Source: Halovenus aranensis
GTDB lineage: Archaea > Halobacteriota > Halobacteria > Halobacteriales > Haloarculaceae
Direction of reading: 5' to 3'
NCBI RefSeq assembly: GCF_900100385.1
Contig: NZ_FNFC01000001.1
Location: forward strand, 186,001-250,000
DNA: 64,000 nucleotides
The number at the start of each line of letters is the position of its first letter. Position 1 is the stretch's first letter. The position numbers and the translations under genes were made by a program. Of the stretch, positions 16,665 through 64,000 are shown piece after piece. The notes beneath the pieces are model-generated. The model made no database searches, was not told the DNA's origin, and saw nothing but the letters and a program-made list of their open reading frames with translations.

Positions 16665-16934
16665 TCAGTCGTCGGCCGCACACGGACCGGGGCCGTCACT
16701 GCAGGCCTCAGTGGCCGGGCCACAGTCGACCCGTGACTCCGTCGGCTCTGTACTCGATTGCAGCGTGTCGATACCCCAGAGCATCCCTGTCGTTGCGATA
16801 GTCCCGCCAATCGGCAGCGCAACGGCCATCGGGGTCGCGATAACTCCAAGCACTACCAGACCGAGACCCAGCACCGAAAGAGAGAGCCGGTCCGACAGAC
16901 GAAACTGCGAGATAGTATGTCCAAATCTCATCAC
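16665..16934 (-). CDS. Small membrane protein with cysteine-containing tail
   Basis: An 89-residue protein with two hydrophobic spans (about residues 19-34 and 36-54) and a C-terminal tail with three cysteines (CGPATEACSDGPGPC). I do not recognise the family. Its promoter is clear: minus-strand TATA at 16955-16962, with a perfect AT-rich inverted repeat immediately upstream. The start could also be the second methionine. Confidence 0.55.
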   Translation of the reverse strand: MMRFGHTISQFRLSDRLSLSVLGLGLVVLGVIATPMAVALPIGGTIATTGMLWGIDTLQSSTEPTESRVDCGPATEACSDGPGPCAADD

Positions 16935-16954
16935 AACATACTAGCGGTCTTTGC

Positions 16955-16962
16955 CGTATAAA
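16955..16962 (-). promoter_or_regulatory. TATA box of the small membrane protein gene
   Basis: Minus-strand ATTTATAC, 21-28 nt before the ATG at 16934. It abuts the 22-bp dyad at 16960-16981. Confidence 0.55.
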
Positions 16963-16981
16963 TATAATCTGAATTATATTT
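16960..16981. promoter_or_regulatory. Perfect AT-rich inverted repeat (9-bp arms)
   Basis: Arms AAATATAAT and ATTATATTT flank the spacer CTGA with no mismatch. It covers the BRE/upstream edge of the promoter for the gene ending at 16934. A bound regulator would block TFB access or recruit it. Confidence 0.5.
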
Positions 16982-16997
16982 CTGTAGGATTCTCTAC

Positions 16998-17011
16998 TGA
17001 AATAGATTTCA
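16998..17011. promoter_or_regulatory. Inverted repeat TGAAAT-AG-ATTTCA
   Basis: A perfect 14-bp dyad, 16 nt from the preceding one and in the same divergent intergenic region. Spacing and symmetry suggest an operator. Confidence 0.4.
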
Positions 17012-17076
17012 TAGAACGCGGTAGCATACCACACGGAACTCTATTCCCGGTCTTGTCCTACCGACGTTACAGTTGT

Positions 17077-17090
17077 TTAGGCTAACCAAA
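17077..17090 (+). promoter_or_regulatory. DtxR/SirR-like half-box upstream of the TATA box
   Basis: TTAGGCTAACCAAA resembles the TTAGG-N4-CCTAA pattern of iron-dependent DtxR-family operators, with one arm imperfect. It lies just upstream of the TATA-like TTTTAATT at 17095-17102. Confidence 0.4.
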
Positions 17091-17102
17091 ACTCTTTTAA
17101 TT

Positions 17103-17116
17103 TTAGGATGGCCTAA
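17103..17116 (+). promoter_or_regulatory. Perfect DtxR/SirR-like operator between TATA and start codon
   Basis: TTAGG-ATGG-CCTAA is a perfect inverted repeat and fits the iron-dependent repressor consensus used by archaeal DtxR-family regulators. It sits between the TATA element (about 17093-17102) and the ATG at 17126, the classical repressor position. The regulator itself is not in the window. Confidence 0.55.
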
Positions 17117-17125
17117 TTCGATGTG

Positions 17126-17287
17126 ATGGACGCATTCAACGAATCGGGAGCAGACACAGAGGAGGCACCGGACGAAGAGTGTCGGGTGACGATGCACCGA
17201 AGCTCGCCCGACCGCACGGTCTTCACCGAGGAGGACAACACCGAGGGTTGGATTGCGACCGACCTGACCGTCCCGCTCGAACGGTAG
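17126..17287 (+). CDS. 53-residue acidic protein, likely iron-regulated
   Basis: A short open frame encoding MDAFNESGADTEEAPDEE at the start and SPDRTVFTEEDNTEGW then IATDLTVPLER at the end. The composition is halophilic, and the C-terminal half resembles small haloarchaeal DUF7511-like proteins, which I state with low certainty. The ATG lies about 27 nt after a TATA-like TTTTAATT, with two DtxR-type boxes around it. Its stop codon directly abuts the stop of the convergent dpsA. The function is unknown. Confidence 0.7.
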   Translation: MDAFNESGADTEEAPDEECRVTMHRSSPDRTVFTEEDNTEGWIATDLTVPLER

Positions 17288-17833
17288 TTACGTGGTCGCG
17301 TCTTCGAGCACGAGCGTGTCGTCTTCGAGGTAGTGTTCGATGTGATGGGCGTCTTCTTCGACCTCGACGAGAATCTCCCGGAGGAGCTGGGCTGTCGCGT
17401 GGTCACCGAGGTTCGCCGCCAGCTCGACGTGGTCACGCAGGTTTTCGATGATATCGCCGTAGATATCGAGGTCGTTGCCGAGTGAGGTACGGATATCGTA
17501 GACGTCTTGATCTTCTGTGTCGACGGGCGCGTGTTCTTCGATTGCCCCCGGTCCGGCGACGGGAGTTCCGCCGAGTGCCTGTGCGCGTTCCGCGAGCTCG
17601 TCGGCGGCTTCCTCTGCGTTCTCTGCTGCCTCGCCGAGGAATTCGTGGATATCGAGGAACTCTGCTCCGGCAACGTTCCAGTGGTGTTTCTTGAGCTGGT
17701 GGTACAGGACGTACGTCGCTGCGAGGTCCGCGTTCAGCGCGTCGATGACCTGTGTCGCTTTCTCGGTTTCCAGGCGTAGCTCGTTTTCTTCGACACTACC
17801 GAACTCTCGTCTGGGTGACTTCTGGGTACTCAT
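17288..17833 (-). CDS. dpsA: DNA-protecting ferritin DpsA
   Basis: A 181-residue Dps-family protein. The ferroxidase-site pattern is visible in KKHHWNVAGAEFLDIHEFL followed by E-rich helix ENAEEAADELAERAQALGG. DpsA forms a 12-mer that oxidises and stores iron and shields DNA from Fenton chemistry; the Halobacterium protein of this family is known to store iron. It is convergent with the 53-aa gene that carries DtxR-like boxes, so an iron theme joins the two. Confidence 0.94.
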   Translation of the reverse strand: MSTQKSPRREFGSVEENELRLETEKATQVIDALNADLAATYVLYHQLKKHHWNVAGAEFLDIHEFLGEAAENAEEAADELAERAQALGGTPVAGPGAIEEHAPVDTEDQDVYDIRTSLGNDLDIYGDIIENLRDHVELAANLGDHATAQLLREILVEVEEDAHHIEHYLEDDTLVLEDATT

Positions 17834-17858
17834 ACAGTACTATATTGTTACTTCAACC

Positions 17859-17866
17859 ATATAAAT
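17859..17866 (-). promoter_or_regulatory. TATA box of dpsA
   Basis: Minus-strand ATTTATAT, 26-33 nt before the dpsA ATG. A CCTAAA half-site (minus strand, about 17872-17877) lies close upstream and could be a partial iron box. Confidence 0.55.
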
Positions 17867-17921
17867 CTGGCTTTAGGAGAAACTATATTTTCGATTTCTA
17901 AAATTACGTTCCTTGAATCCC

Positions 17922-63630: not shown

Positions 63631-63906
63631 TCACTTTCCGGGTGCAACCTGTGGGTTTTGTCTGCAAGACGACTGTGCCCTCGTCTGTCGCTGTGTGACG
63701 AGTCTGGCGACGTGGCCGTACAGACGCTCACCGACTCTGACGCCGACGACACCAGCTACCGCTCCCATCACGAGGGCTGGTGCAGTCATGACCGCGACCA
63801 GCACCGGGAACACCAGTATCGTCCCGAGGAATCCCTCGACCGTCCAGTTCTCGCGGTACTCGTGGTGCCGTTTCGATCCCGTGGCCGAATGTGGTGTCTG
63901 TCTCAT
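63631..63906 (-). CDS. Small membrane protein, unknown
   Basis: A 91-residue protein with a basic N-terminus, two close hydrophobic segments (about 24-62), and a basic tail with one cysteine. I do not recognise it. A TATA-like CACTTATG lies about 27 nt before the ATG (63906) on the minus strand. The remainder to the window edge (63907-64000) shows no gene. Confidence 0.5.
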   Translation of the reverse strand: MRQTPHSATGSKRHHEYRENWTVEGFLGTILVFPVLVAVMTAPALVMGAVAGVVGVRVGERLYGHVARLVTQRQTRAQSSCRQNPQVAPGK

Positions 63907-64000
63907 CGTATCTATCCCAATGGTCTATCTCCACATAAGTGTAATCAGAATTAAGCTTCTGTAACAAGCGTTACTGAAAACCTCTTCTGTCCTGCTGGGC

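Follow-up and report, generated by a model that had tools for sequence, protein, structure and literature searches.

The gap between two small genes of Halovenus aranensis, in a 64-kb window on contig C22 (the whole stretch of 64,000 nt that was analysed), probably holds two independent promoters placed back to back: an iron-box promoter on the plus strand (promoter A), which would be repressed by a DtxR-family regulator, and a composite TTCAG promoter on the minus strand (promoter B), which would be driven by a regulator of the DUF7347-DUF7351 family. The small genes on either side are both real; a membrane protein is encoded on the minus strand (16665-16934; GTG at 16934, ATG at 16931; 88 aa from the ATG, with the C-terminal motif CGPATEAC) and a DUF7331-like protein on the plus strand (17123-17287; GTG at 17123, ATG at 17126; 53 aa from the ATG), the latter followed by dpsA on the minus strand (17288-17833). 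A first-pass annotation of the DNA had listed four inverted repeats between the two genes, and all four are present where it placed them: AAATATAAT-CTGA-ATTATATTT with 9-bp arms at 16960-16981 and TGAAAT-AG-ATTTCA at 16998-17011, both read here on the minus strand, and the imperfect dyad TTAGGCTAACCAAA at 17077-17090 and the perfect dyad TTAGG-ATGG-CCTAA at 17103-17116, both on the plus strand. Dinucleotide shuffling of the gap produced a perfect 9-bp arm in 7 of 1000 trials, and in 5 of 1000 it reached the observed count of arms of at least 6 bp, nested arms included; the box at 17103 is ordinary by itself in this test. The dyad statistics by themselves make a moderate case, and the weight comes from conservation.

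As the sequence reads, the left-hand dyads (16960 and 16998) are slices of one predicted composite minus-strand promoter, TTCAGTA-N8-TACAGAA-N6-TTCAGATTA-TATA, which is matched at 16957-17003 with 0 mismatches and ends, on its TATA side, about 33 nt from the start codon. The first of the two dyads corresponds to TTCAGATTA with the TATA region, and the second to the first TTCAG half-site with an upstream TGAA; cTGAA is a majority feature of the consensus of 65 copies. The strongest dyad of this left-hand array was missing from the first-pass annotation: TTTCTGTAG-N6-CTACTGAAA at 16979-17002, or TTTCAGTAG-N6-CTACAGAAA when read on the minus strand, for which 0.04 matches are expected per window at 3 mismatches. 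The proposal that each gene has its promoter between a pair of dyads is exact for the plus-strand gene; in the case of the minus-strand gene one dyad overlaps the TATA region, and the other belongs to the larger array.

The composite element is sharply distinguished from its background and recurs across the class. In a matrix scan of the window two TTCAG sites were found, the best at 16957-17003 with 71.4 bits (the matrix was built from exact copies, this site itself being in the training set) and a second minus-strand copy at 63934-63980 with 57.2 bits and 1 mismatch; everything else scored 12 or less. With up to 3 mismatches allowed, the genome of H. aranensis has five copies, compared with none for the control. 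Across 84,980 species genomes, exact matching returned 64 stretches, all from Halobacteria, and viral contigs contained no exact copy; at up to 2 mismatches the promoter was found in 67 of 194 genomes of the class and 34 of 65 genera, with 0 for a reversed-pattern control. The exact scan favours conserved copies, and the mismatch-tolerant counts are the fairer ones; the genomes counted share ancestry and are not independent. A lone ATTCAGATTATATTT stretch, lacking the dyad, lies upstream of a LysW-like carrier protein gene (L065, G003:C2:122496) and could be a chance occurrence.

Upstream activating sites occur in archaeal promoters, for example those of bop or gvp. The TTCAG element resembles these in that a dyad immediately precedes BRE/TATA, some 55-60 bp ahead of the start codon; it differs in its sequence, in its fixed composite arrangement with TTCAGATTA, and in its association with small membrane proteins and with regulators of the DUF7347-DUF7351 family. 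No description of the TTCAG motif, nor relevant work on DUF7331 or DUF7347, was found in the part of the literature that was covered; the promoter system is apparently undescribed, with absence from the literature being a weak sign of novelty.

The commonest neighbour of the TTCAG element is a DUF7347-DUF7351 gene, encoding an ArsR-like winged-helix protein, which is found at 21 of the 64 loci, its near end no more than 460 bp away; farther out, the remainder of the 478 kb contains no such gene. These 21 loci come from related genomes with common ancestry and are not independent, and roughly two thirds of the loci elsewhere have no adjacent DUF7347-DUF7351 gene. DUF7347-DUF7351 proteins are numerous in haloarchaea; the genome of H. 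aranensis encodes about 15 paralogues, none beside its TTCAG elements, and the regulator would therefore act in trans in this species. By association, a DUF7347-DUF7351 regulator is the most likely binder of the TTCAG element. It is rather doubtful that a TFB or TBP paralogue, acting as an alternative basal factor, recognises the element instead; the constant spacing with which the element passes into the TATA region, and the BRE-like position of TTCAGATTA, are consistent with such a factor, but the upstream 24-bp dyad looks like a dimer site, and the recurrent DUF7347-DUF7351 neighbour also speaks against it. With a winged-helix regulator as the most likely binder, promoter B would be bound at an upstream-activator position, on the inverted half-sites TTCAGTA and TACAGAA that precede TTCAGATTA and TATA, and would drive the gene of the small membrane protein, which would belong to a dispersed regulon of proteins of this kind. 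Pfam assigns DUF7347-DUF7351 no function, and we know of no target or target site of these proteins; a highly specific candidate binding site makes the family testable.

The right-hand half of the gap has a different character. The downstream box TTAGGATGGCCTAA (17103-17116, plus strand) is an exact match to TTAGGNNNNCCTAA, the 14-bp consensus proposed for a single DtxR/IdeR dimer (PMC8464063), and lies between the TATA box and the start codon; the upstream box TTAGGCTAACCAAA (17077-17090, plus strand) has 1 mismatch to the consensus and overlaps the probable BRE. The two boxes flank the probable BRE/TATA ACCAAAACTCTTTTAAT, within which the putative TATA box TTTTAAT (17095-17101, plus strand), some 28 bp ahead of the ATG, is conserved between the boxes. 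The distance from box to box is exactly 26 bp in all 25 promoters having both, which come from several haloarchaeal families. Of 46 DUF7331 loci, 33 have the downstream box, and the consensus of 33 promoters reads tTaGGc.gACCAAAACccTTtTa..TTTAGGc..gCCTAA. One of the two boxes is absent in some relatives, and some genomes of one family retain the upstream box only. On the minus-strand side, no match to TTAGGNNNNCCTAA at up to 2 mismatches occurs between 8941 and 17077. Both right-hand boxes (17077 and 17103) are of the DtxR/IdeR iron type, and the iron repression that they predict for the DUF7331 gene is well supported.

Iron homeostasis has been reported for haloarchaeal DtxR-family regulators (PMC11349517). 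Promoter A is similar to DtxR/IdeR iron-box promoters, including those of the haloarchaeal Idr1/Idr2, SirR and TroR regulons, in having TTAGGNNNNCCTAA boxes at iron-gene promoters (the consensus used here being that of PMC8464063) and in a genome that encodes DtxR-family regulators. In place of the 19-bp overlapping double-dimer site of DtxR/IdeR, however, two separate boxes 26 bp apart are arranged around BRE/TATA, and the target differs from those regulons in being an uncharacterised small gene paired with dpsA. In the proposed mechanism, an Fe2+-loaded DtxR-family repressor would occupy the two boxes and bracket BRE/TATA; the two-box geometry suggests that the bound repressor would exclude TFB/TBP and RNA polymerase. 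The DUF7331 gene would be silent when iron is plentiful and released when iron is short, and its product would then probably act on, or together with, the neighbouring DpsA.

Genome-wide pattern searches returned 15 exact iron boxes in H. aranensis, compared with 7 for a reversed control pattern, and most of the exact boxes sit shortly upstream of a start codon. Among the genes behind them are those of two substrate-binding lipoproteins of PF01497 and, at C21:108173, a DtxR-family gene that would be subject to autoregulation; the other targets (an AAC(3)-like gene, glycosyltransferases and a histidine kinase) have no obvious connection with iron. The PF01497 family includes iron-siderophore binders. 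Two iron boxes stand right before the gene of the AAC(3)-like acetyltransferase (L030:1515-2387, C28), which matches PF02522, falls below the NCBIfam AAC cut-offs and is an odd member for an iron regulon. Four DtxR-type regulators score over the PF01325 cut-off (C22:305809, C42:103652, C24:76594 and C21:108173), of which C22:305809 resembles solved IdeR/DtxR chains along its length. For all four the top NCBIfam model is an MntR model, scoring below its cut-off, and the boxes of promoter A could on that account answer mainly to manganese through an MntR/SirR-like regulator; this is improbable, as the box is the IdeR/DtxR consensus (PMC8464063), dpsA adjoins the gene, and two of the box genes are PF01497 binding proteins.

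An iron response is also favoured by the partnership with dpsA, which was identified with NF041388 (E 8e-89, 296 bits against a cut-off of 170) and is convergent with the DUF7331 gene at zero gap. The name DUF7331-like is used because the match to PF24018 (DUF7331) lies under the Pfam gathering cut-off (E 0.0016, 19.3 bits against 27, over 42 of 59 positions); the protein has an invariant core, R-VF-E--N---WI, and homologs in 122 of 145 genomes of the order. The dpsA gene lies beside the DUF7331 gene at 8 of 17 loci in the search of the genus, a second pair in H. aranensis (on C7) included, and at 19 of 29 loci in the order, with convergent orientation in 17 of the 19 as judged from strand reading. 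A rigid double box together with a conserved dpsA partnership points to a likely iron-starvation role for this uncharacterised family of small proteins. The second pair (C7:92475-92915) has three exact iron boxes and an adjoining gene for a PF01497 binding protein. The dpsA promoter itself is not claimed as a box target; the site at 17873-17886 has 2 mismatches and is inconsistent among relatives. In the region upstream of dpsA (17834-17921), TTTTGGTACACCAAAA or a similar sequence is seen in some relatives (L014).

Returning to promoter B, a small hydrophobic ORF starts 20-50 nt downstream of the TTCAG element in 60 of 65 loci; the second copy in the window precedes a 91-aa small membrane protein gene on the minus strand (63631-63906). 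The linked proteins have a median length of 89 aa and a hydrophobic span of 44 residues, which leaves room for a two-helix hairpin, and 15 of 63 carry a CxPxTxxC-like motif near the C terminus, including the product of 16665-16934. No Pfam or NCBIfam family was matched over cut-off by these small membrane proteins. In H. aranensis a TTCAG promoter with 2 mismatches also stands in front of an operon for an ABC-2 exporter, located after ribosomal protein genes (C21:206964, L076), and a partial copy precedes such an operon in J07HX64. Recent duplication of small-protein genes along with their upstream DNA, as the sole source of the TTCAG likeness, is very unlikely; one single-linkage cluster does take in 35 of 63 proteins, but just 104 of 1953 protein pairs are related at E 1e-3, whereas the DNA element shows almost no variation and also stands on the exporter operon. 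Fast divergence of the proteins behind a scarcely changing DNA element argues for selection on the element. The balance is even as to whether there is a TTCAG regulon in which the DUF7347-DUF7351 family reads a shared signal and switches on dispersed, fast-diverging small membrane proteins and, in some species, an ABC-2 exporter; if so, the system might serve in signalling or in envelope stress, and some of its members have the CxPxTxxC-like motif at the C terminus.

The arrangement of the gap itself separates the two promoters. An alignment of the gap from related genomes, which the first-pass annotation had proposed as a check, places the dyads in two conserved islands, 16957-17011 and 17076-17116, among the three relatives having both genes; the approximately 65 bp between them is not conserved and is nearly all absent in one relative (L013). 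As two conserved islands flank a freely changing spacer, the gap is read as two promoters and not as one hub. An Rfam scan of 15.8-18.4 kb gave zero matches, so no known RNA element is present there. The iron-controlled or DtxR switch suggested in the first-pass annotation keeps its two right-hand boxes and the dpsA neighbourhood and loses both dyads on the left. These are part of another promoter system, with no tie to iron in any locus examined; the single regulatory hub is replaced by two promoters that share a gap only in a few Halovenus genomes. Control of both genes by DtxR-type regulators through all four dyads is hardly credible, for although the dyads lie inside 160 bp and both islands are conserved, the left-hand sequence is unlike an iron box, no iron theme was found at the 64 other exact TTCAG places, and the small membrane protein gene is present in only 5 of 18 genomes of the genus, compared with 16 of 18 for the DUF7331 gene. 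Little points to a link between the iron-box promoter and the TTCAG promoter, and their common gap appears to reflect a juxtaposition within a single lineage; outside the genus, the DUF7331 gene and the TTCAG element are each found without the other.
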